DNA of 64,000 nucleotides from Paraburkholderia caffeinilytica (lineage in GTDB: Bacteria; Pseudomonadota; Gammaproteobacteria; Burkholderiales; Burkholderiaceae). Where the stretch lies: NCBI RefSeq assembly GCF_003368325.1, contig NZ_CP031466.1, forward strand, positions 2,852,001-2,916,000, given 5' to 3'. The notes below the pieces were generated by a model, which was not told the origin of the DNA, did not search any database, and saw only the letters and a program-made list of their open reading frames with translations. A program made the translations under genes and the position numbers. Each line of letters begins with the position of its first letter. Position 1 is the stretch's first letter. This document shows, piece by piece, positions 2,755 to 60,931 of this stretch.

Positions 2755-4571
2755 TGCGTATGTCCCCACGGCTTACGCTACGCTCGCCCAGTTTGCACAC
2801 CAAGCTGATGCTGGCGCTCGTGATACTGGTCGCGATCGTGGCCGGCACCTCGGCGTATGCGCTGGTCGCGCACGAACGGCAGCGCCGGCTCACTGAACTG
2901 GAGGAGCGCGCCACCCGGATCGCCGACCTGTTCAGCCGGTCACTCGCTCAACCTTTGTGGAACATCGATCTCGGCGCGATCAACGGTCAGCTCGCCGCGC
3001 TCGCGCCGAATCCCGAAGTGGCCCAATTCACCGTCACGGCAGTGGGCTACGGTACGGTATCCACCGCGGGGAAAACCGTCCAGCCGAGCCCGGGCGACAG
3101 CGTGGTGCGCGTCAGGGCAATTGAATACACGCCACCCGGCGATGCACCGAGGGAAAAGATCGGCGAGGTGCGCGTCGTCCTCACGAAGGCGGTCGCGGAA
3201 CAGGCGATCAGCGACGCCCGCCGGGCGATTCTCGCCATGATCGCGGCCGTCGTTGCCGTGCTCTACGCCGCGACTTTCCTGCTGCTCAAGCAAATGGTGC
3301 GCAGTCCGATCAACCGTCTTGAGGAGATGGTCGACCGGATCGCGAGCGGCGACCTTCATGCGCGCTGCACTGTCGAATCCGGCGATGAGCTGGGCCGGCT
3401 CGCCTTGCGCGTCAACGTGATGGCCGACCGTCTTCAGGAATCCACGGTGTGTCTGCGCAATAGCGAACGGAAATACCGAAGCATCGTTGAGAACGCCCTT
3501 GAAGGTATCTTCCTGCTCGATCAGAACGGGCAACTGGATGAAGCCAATCCGGCCATGGCGCAACTGCTCGGCTATTGCGACGTGCCCGACCTGATCGACG
3601 CCGCGGCGAGCGTCCCCCACAAACAACCGTTCTCGCCGGAGCAGATTGCAACCCTGCTTGAAATTCTGCGCATGCGGGGTGACATCGTGGGACTCGAGAT
3701 GGAGTTAAAGCGTCTCGACAGCACACCGATCTGGGTTCAACTCAATGCGCGCGGCGTGACAGGCGACGACGGCAGCCTGAGAGGAGTTGAAGGCTTGCTG
3801 ACCGACATGACGGCCCGCAAGCATGCGGTGGAAAGCCTGCGGCGCCATCGCGACCAGCTCGAACTGGAAGTCGGGGTGCGCAAACGGGCCGAGCTGGAGC
3901 TGCTGGCGTCGCGCGAACAGCTGCAACAGTTATCCGCCCATCTGGAAGCCATTCGCGAGGAGGAAAGGAAACACATCGCGATGGAAATTCACGATGAACT
4001 CGGCCAGTTGCTGACGGCATTGAAAATGGACTTGTCGTTGCTGAGGATGCAACTGCCGGTGGGTTCCGCCGCCATGCAAAAAGCCGAGCAGATGCGCAAT
4101 CTGGTTGAGCAAACCATCCAGATCGTGCGCAATGTGGCCAGCCATCTTCGGCCGGCCGCACTGAATTTCGGCCTCGCCTCCGCGCTGGAATGGCTCGCCG
4201 GAGATTTCACCGACCATACTCACATTCCCTGTCATTTCAATGTCACGGGTGCCGAACCGACCTTCTCGGATTTCCGCGCGACCGCGCTATTCCGTATCGC
4301 GCAGGAGTCGCTGACTAACGTGGCCCGTCATGCCGGTGCATCGCGTGTCGATGTGACGCTGGCGAACACCGAAGCGGGTGTCGAGTTGACGGTCTGCGAT
4401 AACGGCCGAGGCTTTGATATGGTTGCCGCACGGGCCGGATACTCATACGGCCTGCAGGGCATGGCCGAGCGCGCCAGGCTGATCGATGCGCAGCTGCTCA
4501 TCGAGAGCGCGCCCGATTCCGGCTCTGTCGTGCGTCTTTTTGTTCGGGACGACGCCGTTATTGTCACGTAG
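2751..4571 (+). CDS. Membrane sensor histidine kinase, NarX/UhpB/DesK type (HAMP-PAS-HisKA_3-HATPase)
   Basis: 606 residues. Transmembrane helices at about 18-42 and 163-183 bracket a periplasmic domain. HAMP (about 184-236) is followed by PAS (about 240-360), a dimerisation and phosphoacceptor helix with EEERKHIAMEIHDELGQLL (phosphoacceptor His414), and an ATPase domain with N-box ESLTNVARHA, G1 box DNGRGFD and G2 box YGLQGMAERA. The EIHDELGQ signature is typical of kinases paired with LuxR/NarL-type response regulators. No regulator gene follows: the next 324 bases are non-coding and the next operon is yfiRNB, so the partner must be elsewhere. The 4-base overlap with the binding protein suggests that protein is the extracytoplasmic input. 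Confidence 0.9.
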   Translation: MMRMSPRLTLRSPSLHTKLMLALVILVAIVAGTSAYALVAHERQRRLTELEERATRIADLFSRSLAQPLWNIDLGAINGQLAALAPNPEVAQFTVTAVGYGTVSTAGKTVQPSPGDSVVRVRAIEYTPPGDAPREKIGEVRVVLTKAVAEQAISDARRAILAMIAAVVAVLYAATFLLLKQMVRSPINRLEEMVDRIASGDLHARCTVESGDELGRLALRVNVMADRLQESTVCLRNSERKYRSIVENALEGIFLLDQNGQLDEANPAMAQLLGYCDVPDLIDAAASVPHKQPFSPEQIATLLEILRMRGDIVGLEMELKRLDSTPIWVQLNARGVTGDDGSLRGVEGLLTDMTARKHAVESLRRHRDQLELEVGVRKRAELELLASREQLQQLSAHLEAIREEERKHIAMEIHDELGQLLTALKMDLSLLRMQLPVGSAAMQKAEQMRNLVEQTIQIVRNVASHLRPAALNFGLASALEWLAGDFTDHTHIPCHFNVTGAEPTFSDFRATALFRIAQESLTNVARHAGASRVDVTLANTEAGVELTVCDNGRGFDMVAARAGYSYGLQGMAERARLIDAQLLIESAPDSGSVVRLFVRDDAVIVT

Positions 4572-7734: not shown

Positions 7735-8934
7735 TCACCGCCGGTTCGATCCCGACACGACATCGATCCACACAGCCAGCACGAGAATGCTGCCCTTCAC
7801 GATCATCTGCCAGTACGCGTCGACATCGAGCATCGACATGCCGTTGTCCAGACTCGCCATCACCAGTGCGCCGATCAGCGCACCGTAGACCGTTCCAGAG
7901 CCGCCGCGCATCGACGTCCCGCCGATAAAGCACGCCGCGATCGCGTCGAGTTCGCCCATCGATCCCGCCGACGGCGAACCGGCCGCGAGCCGCGCCGTAT
8001 TGACGATCCCAGCGAACGCGCACATCAGTCCCATCAGCGCGAAGATGGCCAGCTTCACGCGGTTGGTATTCACGCCGGAGAGCCGCGTCGCTTCCAGGTT
8101 CGAACCGACTGCATAGATGCGCCGCCCGAACACGGTCTGTGTCGCGATCCACGTGAAAATGCCCAGTAGCGCGAGCAGTAACAAAACCGGCACGGGAATG
8201 CCGCCATAACGGTCGAGCGTCGCGACAAACGCCGCCAGAATCACGCCCGCCCCGACCACTTTCGCGACGTCCTGCCAGATCGGCACCACCCGCAACTTAT
8301 AGCGCTCGCGATTGCTTCGTTGCCGCACCGTCAGAAAGGCCAGTACGACGAACAGCACGACGGCAAGCGTATCGCCGGCAAGGCGCGGCAGATACCCCTG
8401 GCCGACAAATACAAAACCGTCGGAGACCGGCGCGATCGTCGAACCGCCCGTGACACCGAGCAGAATGCCGCGATACGCGAGCATGCCGCCCAGGCCGACA
8501 ATGAACGAAGGCACACGCCGGTATGTCGACCACCATCCGTTGAACATGCCGACGAGCACGCCGAGCAGCATCACCACAGGCACCGTGACGCCGATCGGCC
8601 AATGCCGGTTCACATCGAGAATCGCCGCGACACCGCCGAGCAAACCCAGCAACGACCCCACCGACAGATCGATCTCGCCCGCGATGATCACGAACACCAT
8701 GCCGCACGCGAGCATGCCGGTTATCGACATCTGCCGCAGCAGATTCGACAGATTGCGCGGCGTCACGAACGCGCCGTGCGTCAGAAAGGAGAAGAAAATC
8801 CAGATCACGGCCACGGCGATCAGCAATGCGAGAATCTTGTAACGCGCGAACAGTTGCTGAATGCGCTGCGAGCCGCCGAATGCGCCTCGCGACGCAGCGC
8901 CGTCGGCGGGTTGGGAAGTGACGTCGGGAGTCAT
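7735..8934 (-). CDS. xylH: D-xylose ABC transporter permease XylH
   Basis: 399 residues, a BPD_transp_2 family permease with about ten or more hydrophobic helices and the family signature [13 protein letters not shown] (about residues 85-100). It forms the inner-membrane channel of the high-affinity xylose importer. Its ATG overlaps the xylG stop by 4 bases and it is the last gene of the minus-strand order xylA-xylF-xylG-xylH. The substrate is assigned from the neighbouring xylose isomerase and XylR; by itself this permease could serve another pentose. Confidence 0.9.
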
Positions 8935-10499
8935 GCGGCACTCGCTTCGGTTGGTGCGGTTGGGGTCAGGGATCGCTGCACAGGACGGATCGCGGCGCTG
9001 AGAATGTCCTCTTGCGTGAGGCTGTCGTTGACGAAATCGCCGCGTAATTCTCCTTCGCCGATCACCAGCACGCGATCGCTGATGCCTAGCACTTCAGGCA
9101 ATTCGGACGACACCATCACGATCGACATGCCGCGCTGCGCCAGTTGAAAAATCAGCTTGTAGATTTCGTACTTCGCACCGACGTCGACACCTCGCGTCGG
9201 TTCGTCGAGGATCAGCACTTTGGGGTCGGTCAGCAGCATGCGCGTCAGCACGGCCTTCTGCTGATTGCCGCCCGACAGACTCGCGATCGAGAGCATCGGA
9301 TGCGCCGCGCGCACCGAAAGCCGCTTCATCTCCGTGTGAATCGTGTCGAGTTCGGCGGCGGAATCAATCCGGCCGCCCTTCGCGAAGCGTTGCAACACAG
9401 CAAGCGTAATGTTGTGGCCGACGCTCAGACCCGGCACGATGCCGTGGCGTTTTCGATCTTCGGGCACCATGCCAATGCCGGCGCGAATCGCATCGACAGG
9501 GGCGTGGATTTTCAACAGCTTGCCGTCCATCACCACGCTCGCCTCGCTCACACCGGGATACGCACCGAAGATCGCCTGCATCAGCTCCGTGCGGCCCGCT
9601 CCGACCAGACCGGCAACGCCGAGAATCTCGCCACGCCGCAGCGAAAAAGACACATCACTCACGCGCTTGCGGCGCGGATTGGTAACGTCGAAACAGGTCA
9701 CGTGGCGCGCTTCGAAGATCACGTCGCCGATTGGATGCGGTTCACGCGGGAACAGGTTCTTGATTTCGCGACCCACCATCAGGGAGATGATGCGGTCGGT
9801 GGTCAGCGCTCGCATGGGTTCGGTCGCGACGTGGCGGCCGTCGCGAATCACGCTGATCGTGTCGCACACGGCCGCTACTTCATCGAGCTTGTGCGAGATG
9901 TAGACACAGGCCACGCCGCGCCGCTTCAGATCGCGCACGATATCCAGCAGGATGTGTATCTCCGTGGCAGTCAGCGACGAAGACGGCTCGTCGAGGATCA
10001 GCAGTTTCGCGCGCTTGTTCAACGCCTTCGCGATCTCGATCAACTGCTGGTGGCCGCCACCGTAATTCATCACTGGTTGCGCCGAGTTGATTCCGCTGAT
10101 GCCAAGCTCGCGCAGCAGTTCGTCGGCGCGCTGATACATCGCGGCGTAATTCATTCTGCCGCCGGGCAGCGTGATTTCGTTGCCGAGAAAGATGTTCTCC
10201 GCGACCGAGAGTTCCGGCACCAGCATCAACTCCTGGTGGATGATGATGATGCCCGCCCGTTCCGTGTCCCTTATGTTCGCGGCTTTCAGCGGCTCGCCTT
10301 CCCAGACGATTTCGCCCTCCCACGTGCCGTGGGGATAGACGCCGGACAGCACTTTCATCAGCGTCGATTTGCCCGCGCCGTTCTCGCCGCACAAGCCCAC
10401 GCACTCGCCGGGCGCCACCGTCAGGTCGATGCCGTCGAGCGCCTTCACGCCGGAAAACGCTTTGACGATGCCACGCATCGTCAATAATGGTTCACTCAT
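8931..10499 (-). CDS. xylG: D-xylose ABC transporter ATPase XylG (two ABC domains)
   Basis: 522 residues with two tandem ATPase halves, as in XylG/RbsA/MglA. The first half has Walker [10 protein letters not shown], signature [15 protein letters not shown] and Walker [13 protein letters not shown]. The second has the degenerate Walker [11 protein letters not shown] typical of this family, signature [15 protein letters not shown] and Walker [13 protein letters not shown]. It energises xylose uptake with XylF and XylH. The 3' end overlaps xylH by 4 bases; 88 bases separate it from xylF upstream. Confidence 0.93.
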
Positions 10500-55464: not shown

Positions 55465-55827
55465 CTATTGCGACGCTTCTTCGAGCAGGCGCGCCGCACG
55501 GCTCGCCGTGATGCGGCTTTGAGCCACGCCCTTTGCGTCAAGTGCGATCACCGGGAACAGTTCACGGTCAACGGCCAGTTGCTGCTGATATTGCTCCGCG
55601 GTGTGCACAAGCAATTCAAGCAACGTTCGATGGTTCCTACGTTCCTCCATCGTGATGGCAGGATTCCTACATATTGTGGCCGCAAAAGTGACAAGCGTTT
55701 CCAGTTGGCTTGTGTGACGGTTGCAAAGATCGAAGGCCTGCAATGCAAGTTTCTCGTACTGGAGCGCGTCGACGGGTGGGCGTGAATCGGGTTGAGATTG
55801 TTTTGTTTTTGTGGATTTGTTGCTCAT
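55465..55827 (-). CDS. Small hypothetical helical protein
   Basis: 120 residues from the ATG at 55827 with GGGAGGTC upstream. A polar, Lys/Gln/Ser-rich start (MSNKSTKTKQSQPDSRPP) is followed by an alpha-helical domain with YEKLALQAFDLCNRHTSQLE, ERRNHRTLLELLVHTAEQYQ and RITASRAARLLEEASQ at the end. I do not recognise a family. The good ribosome site and normal composition support a real gene. It lies next to a phage-like RNA element. Confidence 0.65.
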   Translation of the reverse strand: MSNKSTKTKQSQPDSRPPVDALQYEKLALQAFDLCNRHTSQLETLVTFAATICRNPAITMEERRNHRTLLELLVHTAEQYQQQLAVDRELFPVIALDAKGVAQSRITASRAARLLEEASQ

Positions 55828-55898
55828 GGTGCGACCTCCCTGGTACTTCCTGGATCGCCCGACACTCGCTGGAAAGGGGTGAGCGGGCACGTAGAAGG

Positions 55899-56060
55899 GT
55901 TAGCAGACCGGAACTAAACTAAACCGGCGAGCCTTGCGGCTCCCCCACCACAGCCCGCCCATTGGAATATAGACGTGCGGAGGTAGACGCACGACCCGCC
56001 TCCGCGGGTGTGCGAGTTTAGTTACCAGGCTGCTAAACCTGGCCGCCGGGTGTTTCCCGA
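55899..56060 (-). ncRNA. Structured RNA candidate resembling phage C4 antisense RNA
   Basis: On the minus strand the order is: hairpin CCAGG/CCTGG (plus positions 56025-56042); strand AACTAAACT (56023-56015); hairpin CCCGC/GCGGG (56008-55995); hairpin of CGTGCG/CGCACG (55993-55974); hairpin GAGCC-GCAA-GGCTC with a GNRA-type tetraloop (55942-55929); then AGTTTAGTT (55920-55912), which pairs perfectly over 9 bp with the first strand and closes a multibranch loop. The end reads CCGGTCTGCTAACCC. This two-level layout and the sequence flavour recall the C4 RNAs of phages and prophages. An overlapping minus-strand frame (55900-56370) is probably not translated as such. Confidence 0.55.
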
Positions 56061-56550
56061 TGGCTTGATGATTATAAATCAGGGTGGGTGGGGTGCGGGC
56101 AACCAAGCGGGATAAATGGGCAAGATTGGCCGATCGGATAAGGCTTCGATGGCAGCGCTGCGGCGATCTGATCTCGCCTAACCGCTTGGTAGCCGAAGCG
56201 TGACGCAACGGCTGATTGTCGAGGCGGATGCAAGCAGTTGTTCCGACGCTCAATGAATGGCTTGCTTCCGGGCAACGCCCGGGACCGTAGTCAACCCTGA
56301 AGAGCCATTCGCCGTCCGGCTGACGGCCGTCTGTTCGAGAGGACTCAGCGGACACTACTTTGGTCGCCACCGACTGAGCACGCTGCTTGCAGTGTCAGAC
56401 GACCGGTTCGACTGATCGCAGCCAACTCAGCACGAACATGCTTATGACGCGAATGCAGACACGGGCGAGTTGGTCGCCGAGAGAACGTGTGACGCCATTT
56501 GATTCTGGCTCCGCAATGAGCTTTCGGGGTGGAGGATAACTGGTACGCAC
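56061..56550. other. Non-coding stretch between the RNA candidate and the three-gene operon
   Basis: About 490 bases without a convincing gene. A minus-strand frame continues from the RNA element up to 56370 but lacks a ribosome site and family resemblance. No integrase, tRNA end or att-like repeat was found, although the flanking content looks phage-related. Confidence 0.4.
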
Positions 56551-57220
56551 CTAGATCTGGCTACGCATGCGCGTCGGGGCTGCTGTCGGATGACTTGCGA
56601 CGATCCGTATCCAGTCGGATAAATTCCCTGCCTTTCCCGGTGACCCAAAGGTGCAGTCGATGTACAGCGAGTCGTATTTCTGAAAGGCGTACATAAAGGA
56701 ACGGTGGTCGTGGAAATCGCGATCTAGGGTCCAGTACGGCTCCGCTTTTTCCAAACAGATCAAATAGATTTTCTATCGCTGCGGCTTGAATGTTCTTTTT
56801 GTTTATCGTTGCATGCGCAATTTCATTGGAAAATCCAATGTGGGCATGTGCGAAATCGATTTTCCCTCGCTGAACAATTGGTGCGTCTTTTATTGAAAAC
56901 TGATTTATACCATCACCAGAAGTAATATTCCGAAGGGCATTCGCATTAAAGCTTTGAACCCCAACAGCAGTCCGCCCCGATTTTCCCAGCAGTATTTCAA
57001 ATACGAAAAAATCAAGGCGGCGGGGCGACGAATAGCATTGTCGCGATACCGATTGTTCGCACGCAATCAGGTGTTTTTTCTGAAACCCCTTGACGCTGTA
57101 CCCGCCGTTTTCCCAATTCATCGGCTCAACCACGGCAAGCAGGATTTCCTCCCCTCCCCTCACTTCCCCTAGTGATACCATTGAATAATCGGGTTTTTGA
57201 TTTTTATCTGCGTCTGCCAT
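56551..57220 (-). pseudogene. Third gene of the TIGR04255 operon, split by a one-base frameshift
   Basis: From the ATG at 57220 one frame runs to 56561 with MADADKNQKPDYSMVSLGEV, FEILLGKSGRTAVGVQSFNA and AIENLFDLFGK, then turns into low-quality sequence. The neighbouring frame from about 56750 gives a much better end: KAEPYWTLDRDFHDHRSFMY, AFQKYDSLYIDCTFGSPGKA and GNLSDWIRIVASHP, ending at 56551. Removing one base in GGAAAAA (about 56750) restores 222 residues. So the gene is recently inactivated, recoded, or carries a sequence error. The function is unknown and the composition is AT-rich. It lies 11 bases after the second gene. Confidence 0.65.
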
Positions 57221-57231
57221 CGTTTAACGAC

Positions 57232-57819
57232 TCACGCAATAAAGTAATCTTTCAGATCCTTTGGAATCCCACCTCCCGCGACAGCTACATTTTGTCCTGG
57301 CACGAAGGACCCGTTCTGAAAATACGTATACCCGTAATCGTTGTCACCCTCAAACATTGCGGCTGCTTTCTTTGTGCCTTCTCGCCATTCAAGCGTTACC
57401 ATCCCATCAAGCGCTATACTTGGCTGCGGCAATGGAATCTCGAGGGGGAGCTCGCTGATAAATACAAGCGCCTCCGGCACAGCAGAAAACAACTGTTTTT
57501 CGGCTTCCTCATCCTCCAGTCCTTCCAAGTTTAGGAAACGGATAATGGACCGTTCAAGCAGGAGTTTTTCTCGAGCCCTATCGGCAGGTCGCGTTTCAAT
57601 GACAATTTCTGCGACGTCAGCGGCTCCAGCCGCACTAGGCTTCACAACGGAAAAAATCGAGCCGTGTAAAACGGTACCAAAGGACCAAGTAAAATCAAAT
57701 GGTACTTGTTGACCGATCTGAACAGGAAATTCCAATTGTTCTGCTTTGCCCAATTCCGGCGAAAGAGTCGTAATAACGCTGGTCAGCGGGAAAGAACCCT
57801 GATAAGCGATTGCCGTCAT
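57232..57819 (-). CDS. Uncharacterised protein, second gene of the TIGR04255 operon
   Basis: 195 residues. No named family is recognised. An N-terminal part with ELGKAEQLEFPVQIGQQVPF is followed by an acidic stretch (LEGLEDEEAEKQLF) and a C-terminal block PQPSIALDGMVTLEWREGTK then AAAMFEGDNDYGYTYFQNGS, a pattern I associate with companions of TIGR04255-type proteins. No signal peptide or membrane helix, so probably cytoplasmic. The ATG overlaps the stop of the TIGR04255 gene by 4 bases, indicating stoichiometric co-expression. AT-richer than the chromosome around it. Confidence 0.75.
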   Translation of the reverse strand: MTAIAYQGSFPLTSVITTLSPELGKAEQLEFPVQIGQQVPFDFTWSFGTVLHGSIFSVVKPSAAGAADVAEIVIETRPADRAREKLLLERSIIRFLNLEGLEDEEAEKQLFSAVPEALVFISELPLEIPLPQPSIALDGMVTLEWREGTKKAAAMFEGDNDYGYTYFQNGSFVPGQNVAVAGGGIPKDLKDYFIA

Positions 57820-58610
57820 TTTTTCTCCTCGGGTTGCATTAAATTGATCAGCTCAGTTTTGACAAGCGAAAGAAAGGTCTTGCGTGCCAAAGCATGTGCA
57901 TTTTCGAACCATTGCATTACGAGGCCGTGCTCTGTTGCGCCGCTTTTTTCAATAGACAGTTGGAGCACGCAACCGGGCGCCTGATTGATCTGTGCTTCTG
58001 CCACTTGGACTACGACATGCGAGTCCCGGGGTTCCACCACGGGTATCCGCGTTTGGGAATTAGTGGCGATAACATCTGCGGCGGTTCCGATGCTTTCAAT
58101 AAAACGATCGGGTAGGACGGATCTTAATCCCAAATACTTCGACGTAAATTGCGCATACGTTTGGAAGTCGTGCTTGTCAGTAAACGCATTGATATATTTA
58201 AGCTGAAGCGATTTAAGCCGAAGAAATCGGTTTGGTGTAGGAAATGACTCCAAGAGCGCACTGACAGCCGAGGCCACTGAGGGCTGAAAGTCAGGCCAAC
58301 CGGTGTAGGGTTGACCGGCCATGTTCACGGTGAGTAGACCAGGCCCGAGCTGCACCTTCGGCCAAGTATCGGCGGTTGGCGCGAACCTGACGACAGGTTG
58401 CCAAGCCAAAAATTGACGTGGCACTTGTGGTGGTGCGAGTTCTTGGGATTGCGGAAATCCTGCCGCGATCAATCGTGGCGTAAGGTCGGCGCGTACCACA
58501 TCGAAGAAAGGATCAATTCCGCCAACAGCCGGCATCGCGACCGCAGTCAGTTCCCAGTGGAGTTCGCATATCACCTCCACAAGGGAGGGATTCTTATAGA
58601 TGGTTCCCAT
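57816..58610 (-). CDS. TIGR04255-family protein
   Basis: 264 residues. The family start KNPSLVEVICELHWEL, the central WPKVQLGPGLLTVNMAG then YTGWPDFQPSVASAVSALLE, LRLKSLQLKYINAF and the C-terminal WFENAHALARKTFLSLVKTE match TIGR04255, a sporadically distributed cytoplasmic family of unknown function seen in variable genome regions. It is the first gene of a three-gene operon. The start has no clear Shine-Dalgarno; an inverted repeat lies 15-26 bases upstream. Confidence 0.85.
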   Translation of the reverse strand: MGTIYKNPSLVEVICELHWELTAVAMPAVGGIDPFFDVVRADLTPRLIAAGFPQSQELAPPQVPRQFLAWQPVVRFAPTADTWPKVQLGPGLLTVNMAGQPYTGWPDFQPSVASAVSALLESFPTPNRFLRLKSLQLKYINAFTDKHDFQTYAQFTSKYLGLRSVLPDRFIESIGTAADVIATNSQTRIPVVEPRDSHVVVQVAEAQINQAPGCVLQLSIEKSGATEHGLVMQWFENAHALARKTFLSLVKTELINLMQPEEKK

Positions 58611-58624
58611 TAGGGTTCGCTTAG

Positions 58625-58636
58625 CGTACCTGTACG
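58625..58636. promoter_or_regulatory. Inverted repeat upstream of the TIGR04255 operon
   Basis: CGTAC-CT-GTACG at 58625-58636 lies 15-26 bases before the TIGR04255 start, a place for a repressor or an early-transcript structure. It is short and could be chance. Confidence 0.3.
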
Positions 58637-59299
58637 TTGTTTACGCGAGGATATCAGGAAAGCTCATAGGGTAGTCGCGTTCGGTGGACGCACACTGCCG
58701 CTTGTCTCGCCCTGCTCCGCAGAGGTCGGCCGCGTCGATTTGATTGGATTGCGGTTCAAAGTGAATGAAGATCGGGAGCAGACGAACCGGCGAGCAATGG
58801 CGGCTGACGTAGCTAAAGTACTCCGGCGGCCGGTCGGCATGATCTCACTCGACCTTGGGCAGTCTTGGATTTGCGACCGACTGCTCTACGCGCTAGTCCG
58901 TGAACCGCCGGTAATTGCGGCGAAGCTGACATCCCACTGTCTGAGGTACGCCAGCGGCCAAGAACAGTTCATGGCCGATTTCCGCCACGTAGGCAGCTTC
59001 CGCACCACCCAAACCCCGAAACAAATCCCACCCCAAAATCACCTCTCGCCATGAACCACGACCGCCTCCCCCTACCTCAAACGTAGGCTTTTCCAGGCAA
59101 ACCCCTATCAAGTACCGCTTCACCTTGCCGTTAACAAAAGTGAATGGGCGTCACGCGGTCGCGGCACCACCTCGCAGCACGGTCAGCACACCGCGAACGC
59201 ACCACCAAAGGGAGACCCCCACAACACCCCGAGACAACGGCCGCCACGAACCCACTGGCCTCCGCTTACCATCCCGGGAAAAGGCGGACATAAAAAACA
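58637..59299. other. Intergenic region between the TIGR04255 operon and tpsB
   Basis: About 660 bases. Two opposed ORFs (58740-59054 plus; 58893-59123 minus) overlap each other and show no recognisable domain; I treat both as non-coding. The promoters for the divergent tpsB gene and the TIGR04255 operon must lie here. No repeat or att-like sequence was noticed. Confidence 0.45.
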
Positions 59300-60931
59300 A
59301 TGAAGCGACGTCTAATCCAATGCCTGTCGGGGCTGGCATTGATCGCAGCAGCCACCAATACCTTCGCGGACGACGGCTTCACCATCACGCGCTTCGAGGT
59401 TGAAGGAAACAGCCTGCTGCCCGCCGACGAAGTCCAACGCCTGCTACAACCCATGAGCGGCCCGCACCGCGTCTACGGCGACATCCAGCACGCGCTCGAA
59501 GCGCTCGAAAACGCCTACCGCAAAGCAGGCTACACCGCCGTCGAGGTCAACGTACCCGAACAGGAACTCACCAGCGGCGTCGTCAAAATCCAGGTGACCG
59601 AAAATCGGATCGGCAACATCACCGTCACCGGCAACCAGCACTTCAGCGAAAAGAACGTCCTCGCCGGGCTGCCGCCACTTCAGCGCGGCCAGTCGCCGAA
59701 CCTGCGCAAAATCTCCGAGGCGGTGCAACTCAGCAACGACAACCCGGCCAAGCAGGTCAACGTAACACTAAGCAGCAGCGACGAACCCGGCACCGTCAAC
59801 GCCGAAGTCAAAGTGGTCGACGACAATCCGCTGCACATCTCCGCGACGGTCGACAACACCGGCGCGACCTCCACCGGCCGCTGGCGCACCGGCGTCGCCA
59901 TTCAGGACGCCAACCTGTTCAATCTAGATCAGGTCGGCACGCTGGCGTACACGACCTCCCCCGACAGCCCGAGCGGCGTGCGGGTTAACGTCTACTCCGT
60001 CGGCTATCGGATTCCGCTGTACAGCCTCGGCGACAGCCTTGAATTCCTCTACGGCAAGTCCGACATCAACACGCCAAGCTCATCGCCAACGCTCGGTGGC
60101 CTGCTCGGCTTCACCGGCAAGGGCGACATCTACGCTTTCCGCTGGAATCACCTCTTCGCCCGCCGCGGCGAGACCACCAGCAAGCTGATAGTCGGCTTCG
60201 ACTACAAGAAAATCGATTCGACCTGCAACGTCAACGGCGTCACGTTCAGCACCGCAGGACCGACGCCGCCCGTCGCGTCCTGCGTGCCCTACACCACGAT
60301 GCCGCTCAGCCTGACGTATAGCAGCCAGACTGTCGGCGTGGGACAAAGCATCGACTACGACATCGGCATCTCGCGCAACATACCGACCGGCACGCAATAC
60401 ACCAACACCGACGGCCGCACCGATCGATATTCGTACCTGACGCCCGGCAGCCGCGACACCGTCGACGGCTTCACGATCCTGCACGGCGACGCGTCGATCC
60501 TCCGAAGCTTCGCCAACGACTGGCAATGGCGTGTCGCCAGCACGGCGCAAGTCACGAGGAACCCGTTGGTGTCGTCGGAACAGTTCGGTTTAGTGGGCAT
60601 CTACGCCGTGCGCGGCTTCACCGAGCGCGCGGTGGTTGCCGATAGCGGCGTGTTCGTCAACGCCGAGATCTACACGCCTCAACTCGTCAGCAAGGGCAAC
60701 CTGCGCCTGCTGGCTTTCTTCGACTTCGGGTATGGCCACAACAGCAATGTCGGCAGCAGCGGCATTCCGGCAAACCTGAACGTATCGAGCATGGGTGTCG
60801 GCGCTCGTTACGCCTTCGGCCGTAACGTCAGCATCAGGTTGGACGTCGCGCGAGTCGGCGCGGCCGGCAATTCACTCACCGAGAAGCGCGGCGACTTCCA
60901 CGCCGATGTCAGCGCAAGCCTGGGCTTTTGA
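59300..60931 (+). CDS. TpsB outer-membrane transporter (FhaC/ShlB/HecB family)
   Basis: 543 residues. Signal peptide (about 1-23, ending TNTFA), two POTRA domains (about 28-100 with ITRFEVEGNSLLPADEVQRL; about 101-175 with IGNITVTGNQHFSEKNVLAG), then a 16-strand beta-barrel from about 185 to the end. The conserved lid-loop motif is present as YAVRGFTERAV. The C-terminus is SASLGF with the terminal Phe of outer-membrane proteins. It exports its TpsA partner, which starts two bases after its stop, so the two are co-transcribed. Confidence 0.94.
   Translation: MKRRLIQCLSGLALIAAATNTFADDGFTITRFEVEGNSLLPADEVQRLLQPMSGPHRVYGDIQHALEALENAYRKAGYTAVEVNVPEQELTSGVVKIQVTENRIGNITVTGNQHFSEKNVLAGLPPLQRGQSPNLRKISEAVQLSNDNPAKQVNVTLSSSDEPGTVNAEVKVVDDNPLHISATVDNTGATSTGRWRTGVAIQDANLFNLDQVGTLAYTTSPDSPSGVRVNVYSVGYRIPLYSLGDSLEFLYGKSDINTPSSSPTLGGLLGFTGKGDIYAFRWNHLFARRGETTSKLIVGFDYKKIDSTCNVNGVTFSTAGPTPPVASCVPYTTMPLSLTYSSQTVGVGQSIDYDIGISRNIPTGTQYTNTDGRTDRYSYLTPGSRDTVDGFTILHGDASILRSFANDWQWRVASTAQVTRNPLVSSEQFGLVGIYAVRGFTERAVVADSGVFVNAEIYTPQLVSKGNLRLLAFFDFGYGHNSNVGSSGIPANLNVSSMGVGARYAFGRNVSIRLDVARVGAAGNSLTEKRGDFHADVSASLGF

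Follow-up and report, generated by a model that had tools for sequence, protein, structure and literature searches.

The subject of this analysis is a three-gene operon of Paraburkholderia caffeinilytica that is headed by a protein of the NCBI family TIGR04255. It lies at positions 56,551 to 58,610 of a 64,000-nucleotide stretch (contig NZ_CP031466.1 of assembly GCF_003368325.1, positions 2,852,001 to 2,916,000, forward strand), which is referred to in its whole length as the window. We lean, modestly, towards reading this trio as a three-component toxin-antitoxin module, in which the last gene (C) would encode the toxin, the middle gene (B) its antitoxin and the first gene (A) a third component that stays constant where the other two vary. 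The genes are as follows:

57816..58610, minus strand, gene A: TIGR04255-family protein of 264 amino acids, first in the operon
57232..57819, minus strand, gene B: protein of 195 amino acids, overlapping A by 4 bases
56561..57220, minus strand, gene C: protein of 219 amino acids, intact, beginning after an 11-base gap behind B

An earlier note on this DNA had described three packed minus-strand genes with a 4-base overlap and then an 11-base gap, richer in AT than their flanks and headed by a TIGR04255 protein, and both coordinates and composition agree with it. The trio has a guanine plus cytosine (GC) content of 49.9%, against 59-62% in the flanking stretches, and values as low are found in 0.2% of 1,239 segments (2,050 bases each) across the 64 kb. 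Gene A scores 87.3 bits against the NCBIfam model of TIGR04255 (cut-off 30), with its residues 5-258 on positions 2-251 of the 252 in the profile; its own profile matches that of 22 other family members with E 7e-18, and its AlphaFold2 model has a pLDDT (predicted local distance difference test) of 79 and a pTM (predicted template modelling score) of 0.81. B and C had been given as proteins without a named family, and so they remain: neither has a Pfam or PADLOC match (E <= 1) or an NCBIfam match near cut-off, and a search of PHROGs returned chance-level rows only. Two statements of the note had to be corrected. Gene C encodes 219 and not 222 residues, and the operon is not damaged, as had been supposed; among 12 protein matches, the full-length homologues of C measure 208-219 amino acids and end in the same frame, and the P. 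tuberum homologue, at 219 amino acids, aligns with it over the full length at 88%. Compared with P. tuberum, the genes show a nonsynonymous and synonymous divergence (dN/dS) of 0.032/0.284 (A), 0.070/0.377 (B) and 0.062/0.447 (C). Since dN lies well below dS, purifying selection acts on each of the three, which have been maintained as proteins; C is intact, and the operon therefore needs no 'repair'.

The three genes also recur together. A close relative of C is present in four distinct fetched loci (the window, L051 of P. tuberum, L045 and L046), which were mostly reached through A, and A and B precede it in the same order in all four, this being the fixed trio for which the earlier note had proposed to look. 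With C as the starting point, searches recovered it from 2 of 299 genomes of the family and from a single viral contig, each time adjoined by A and B, and a search with B returned the same 2 of 299 genomes. The window and P. tuberum have a sharp-edged block in common:

56542..58988, unstranded: block common to the window and P. tuberum, 88% DNA identity by blastn of L002 and L004 (one and the same P. tuberum locus) against the window

Beyond these limits there is no further P. tuberum match in the stretches compared. The comparison points to this block as the unit that moves, in keeping with the compact, sporadic and mobile-looking operon that had been claimed, and the 378 bases upstream of A within it presumably hold the promoter.

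TIGR04255 modules and their partner genes

TIGR04255 is sporadic, occurring in 21 of 144 genomes of the genus, 30 of 321 in a sample of the class and 28 of 349 in a sample of the phylum (the window's own genome is counted in each), and in 0 of 14 control genomes for each of the three samples. We parsed 84 loci, calling genes on the same strand by a simple distance criterion. TIGR04255 usually opens a run of three co-directed genes; a second such gene was present in 81 loci and a third in 77. Proteins were clustered in sets of about 80, and clusters whose profiles matched at E < 0.001 were joined. The 77 third genes comprise 30 CDL and 29 HAHI proteins (names coined in this analysis after an 'SxxCDL' type motif and a loosely kept 'HAHI' type motif), three Zeta-like kinases, three L113-type, two L042-type, two HEPN and two PIN proteins, one each of HNH-like, YhaV and PemK/MazF type, and three calls that are not usable, these being a broken locus (L043), a disrupted HAHI gene (L117) and a long open reading frame artefact (L125). 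Two loci were read separately, L106 as a HAHI trio and L109, from outside the 84, as a HEPN trio by eye.

Known toxins thereby fill, in sister modules, the slot that C holds in the window. Third genes exceed the Pfam cut-offs for Zeta_toxin (33.2 bits), HEPN (29.8), PIN (35.8 and 37.1), Toxin_YhaV (156.2) and PemK_toxin (67.9), while the HNH match falls below its own (17.4 vs 21.4). A system of toxin-antitoxin type is the best reading because the third gene is sometimes a known toxin. The third genes of L042, L031 (CDL) and L048 (HAHI) gave no significant family in a Pfam scan.

Genes two and three co-vary across TIGR04255 modules. All 29 HAHI C genes are preceded by a B gene of one family, so that B and C form an adjacent, co-oriented and matched pair, separated in the window by 11 bases; a B family with weak helix-turn-helix matches precedes 19 of the CDL genes and all three Zeta genes. 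The assignment of roles within the pair draws on two sister modules. PrlF is the antitoxin of YhaV, and at L123, where the third gene is YhaV, residues 85-129 of B align with positions 46-90 of the 99 in PrlF; the match to a Rhizobium PrlF, whose gene was fetched together with its YhaV, is 34% over 44 residues (E 3e-5) and falls at the same end of B. At L129, where the third gene is PIN, the tail of B aligns (E 8e-8 and 2e-7) with a small protein from two cyanobacterial plasmids, where its gene stands just ahead of a related PIN gene. The remainder of B is different in both cases, and we take these proteins to join a known antitoxin's toxin-binding tail to a different N-terminal part. Because B carries antitoxin tails in the YhaV and PIN modules, it is probably the antitoxin, with C the toxin and TIGR04255 the shared third component.

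The window's own trio appears, by distant kinship in sequence, to belong to the HAHI class. In profile-profile comparisons whose opposing profile excluded the window's group, its C matched 24 C proteins of other TIGR04255 modules at a probability of 93.7 (E 1.9e-7) and residues 84-166 of its B matched 25 B proteins of other modules at 96.2 (E 2.7e-9), the C-terminal half of B belonging to a 'WDG / DGxIxxEW' family. On a tree of 81 TIGR04255 proteins, 77 of them labelled (L117 and L119 as HAHI and L141 as CDL by hand), the effector class needs at least 14 changes; the least possible is 9, the mean of shuffled labels is 36.0 and none of 200 shuffles was as low as 14. CDL alone accounts for 10 changes, 6 of them forced by well supported branches, and HAHI for 7, with 5 so forced. 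From these changes it follows that effector pairs have been long stable with TIGR04255 yet swapped several times. On this tree the window groups, with support, in a set of 8 rows made up of seven HAHI modules and the YhaV module.

Some third genes merit description in their own right. CDL is the commonest (30/77; L031 at 7969-8802 on the minus strand, L032, L033, L110 and others) and constitutes a second candidate toxin family, its representative having no significant match in Pfam, NCBIfam or PADLOC. The L113-type genes (L113 at 3797-4447 on the minus strand, L146 and L147) have a conserved pattern of Cys and His and, judged by eye, possibly encode a cysteine peptidase; Pfam gives them no significant family. 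Decayed modules are seen in the region of L043 at 9728-10294, where TIGR04255 lies in pieces by a large recombinase-like open reading frame, and at L117 (6396-6719), with its disrupted HAHI gene.

Proposed mechanism and its alternatives

In a module of this kind A would be the guardian or sensor of antitoxin B. B may itself be bipartite: its C-terminal region would bind the toxin and be specific to the class, and its N-terminal region, some 40-90 residues long and unlike the DNA-binding domain that is usual in antitoxins of this sort, could be what A holds. C would stay silent for as long as B is held or protected by A; were a phage product or other stress to remove A, B would be lost, C would act and growth would stop. 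This sensing scheme is modelled by analogy on the SecB-like chaperone in CmdTAC and HigBAC, and we infer the toxicity of C, the role of A as guardian or sensor and a part in phage defence. It is possible, and suggested here tentatively, that TIGR04255 marks a large and so far undescribed class of toxin-antitoxin systems with three components in Pseudomonadota, in which a guardian or sensor other than SecB would act on interchangeable pairs, HAHI and CDL would be new toxin families and a phage protein would be the trigger.

Several observations weigh against the toxin-antitoxin reading. Verified toxins are a minority of third slots, most of which hold unnamed families, and the known toxins were counted behind TIGR04255 only; L130, which clusters with the HEPN protein L049, has no Pfam family of its own. 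The helix-turn-helix matches in B are below cut-off, as are, by far, the scores of the L123 B protein against the PrlF models of Pfam and NCBIfam (17.2 vs 32 and 17.7 vs 125 bits). The model of the window's C (pLDDT 71) has no matching fold among solved structures, its sequence matches no known toxin in Pfam, NCBIfam or PADLOC, and a profile of the other HAHI proteins without the window's group (A4) missed it in its own genome. A search for a shared hydrophobic client segment in B was negative, with 4 of 80 proteins at p <= 0.05 and no more than in shuffles, although charged residues are scarcer in the first 45 positions of B than in its remainder in 62 of 76 proteins. Profile-profile comparison of TIGR04255 with 8 SecB proteins of the genus gave a probability of 0.1 (E 0.42), a result at the level of sequence that leaves room for a common fold. 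Open reading frames close to TIGR04255 showed no enrichment of defence families in the count made: the 140 nearest to 80 loci gave 77 PADLOC families, against 96 from 140 control frames taken from arbitrary places (families being counted, not proteins), and the strong matches are single ones, among them a viperin and a type I specificity subunit. Finally, L177 (minus strand) encodes a 381-amino-acid protein (1739-2884), in which an unnamed N-terminal domain is fused to the B domain (profile probability 88.9, E 2.4e-6), and then a HAHI C of 138 amino acids (1335-1751; 95.1, E 3.3e-8). Comparison of its profile with TIGR04255 gave 0.3 and showed no relation; by these matches, an HAHI pair can exist without TIGR04255.

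Other explanations have to be set beside the toxin-antitoxin module with a guardian. TIGR04255 might itself be the neutralising antitoxin, with a fold adaptable to many toxins and with B an accessory or regulator, as would suit the only constant gene, first in order, on whose tree the effector classes have repeatedly changed; Panacea, a single antitoxin domain reported to serve dozens of toxins (PMC8832971), is a precedent. We consider this improbable, however, for in the YhaV and PIN modules the tails that resemble antitoxins belong to B and not to A, the B family changes with C, and at L177 the B domain and HAHI C occur without TIGR04255. A regulatory or enzymatic operon, in which A would be enzyme-like (its predicted model may resemble guanidino-kinase domains, of the guanidino kinase / glutamine synthetase fold) and the toxins would be neighbours by chance, is very improbable in our estimation.

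The operon might alternatively be a selfish addiction module, securing the persistence of prophages or islands in the genome without sensing phage, and A would then only stabilise the antitoxin. The P. tuberum copy sits in a prophage-like contig, classed as viral by IMG/VR, beside an Ant-type antirepressor (185 bits), two Arc-like repressor proteins and tail proteins, and the block seems to move as a unit. The earlier note had asked whether the trios lie in defence islands or prophages; this one copy lies in a prophage-like contig, and no enrichment of defence islands was seen around TIGR04255 loci. Against selfishness, the window's A had no match in 72,556 plasmid and 50,697 phage records by searches that reach close kin only, in which the HAHI C of a sister module was likewise unmatched, and toxin-antitoxin modules can serve both roles; we regard this explanation as unlikely.

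Should the toxin-antitoxin reading with a guardian be true, a family that NCBI lists by number only would become a common part of a toxin-antitoxin class in roughly 1 in 10-15 sampled genomes, the chaperone-guarded design of toxin-antitoxin-chaperone (TAC) systems would have arisen with a protein other than SecB, and two unnamed toxin families, HAHI and CDL, would be offered to biochemistry. Furthermore, the constant part could be compared across modules with different toxins, as a simple test of phage sensing. A literature search for 'TIGR04255', with preprints outside its scope, returned no paper that mentions the family name. On this reading, the module would be one version of a self-poisoning switch that is widespread and hardly noticed in bacteria, combining a constant protein with a version-specific antidote and poison, and may help to stop viruses.

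Surroundings of the trio

The trio is flanked on one side by a C4 antisense RNA, a chromate transporter and a cupredoxin, and on the other by a ShlB/FhaC-type transporter. The earlier note was right in placing a phage-like RNA beside the trio and in seeing no metabolic neighbours, and there is no obvious defence island in the window's neighbourhood; the trio does recur elsewhere, and linkage to a housekeeping pathway, which the note had named as the other outcome that would count against its idea, was not observed. The features on the side of the RNA are:

55875-55966, minus strand: C4 antisense RNA, 62.4 bits (gathering score 45), overlapping the start of a 141-amino-acid open reading frame
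55465-55890, minus strand: the 141-amino-acid open reading frame, without family, its start overlapped by the C4 antisense RNA

About 600-680 bases of this stretch recur at 78-81% in at least four other places of the same genome (five candidates were scored), and because of these copies the stretch is regarded as a repeated element. An isrK-like match at 55989-56064, beside this element, scores 28.5 bits and is below its cut-off of 50. On the far side, the ShlB/FhaC-type outer-membrane transporter (59300-60931, plus strand) has a POTRA domain and is followed by long repetitive sequence; we take the two to be, probably, a two-partner secretion pair.

Comparison with known systems

CmdTAC consists of a toxin, an antitoxin and a SecB-like chaperone (PMC11618068), chaperone addiction of antitoxins is described (PMC6377645), and MqsRAC and HigBAC are presented as TAC systems (PMC9519451, PMC11980606). 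TIGR04255 modules resemble these in having three genes, a constant third protein, variable toxins and a probable antitoxin with an extra part that canonical antitoxins lack. They differ in that their third protein, TIGR04255, is encoded by the first gene of the operon, and in the position of the extra part: in the B proteins that allowed a judgement (L123, L129) it is N-terminal, but in chaperone addiction it is C-terminal. There being no sequence relation to SecB, they would therefore be an undescribed functional analogue of TAC systems, if the reading holds.

PDC-M32, a candidate phage-defence pair of PADLOC that is reported from a Sinorhizobium prophage (PMC12429752), shares some features. 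At L048, the B protein scores 27 bits against PDC-M32A, aligning with the final part of the model (positions 261-342 of 375), and for C the score against PDC-M32B is a very weak 12.4 bits. L177 has a similar two-gene plan. The window's proteins, in contrast, have no PADLOC match at E <= 1, and B stands there as a gene of its own, accompanied by TIGR04255.

Type II toxin-antitoxin systems (PrlF-YhaV, PIN, PemK/MazF, Zeta and HEPN) supply toxins that occur in sister modules and, for YhaV and PIN, the antitoxin tails, but the window's C is outside all those toxin families by sequence and a third gene precedes the pair. Panacea is reported likewise to combine one conserved protein part with many toxin domains (PMC8832971, PMC10440598). 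There, the conserved part acts as the antitoxin and does the neutralising; here, antitoxin tails are found in B and the constant protein is separate.
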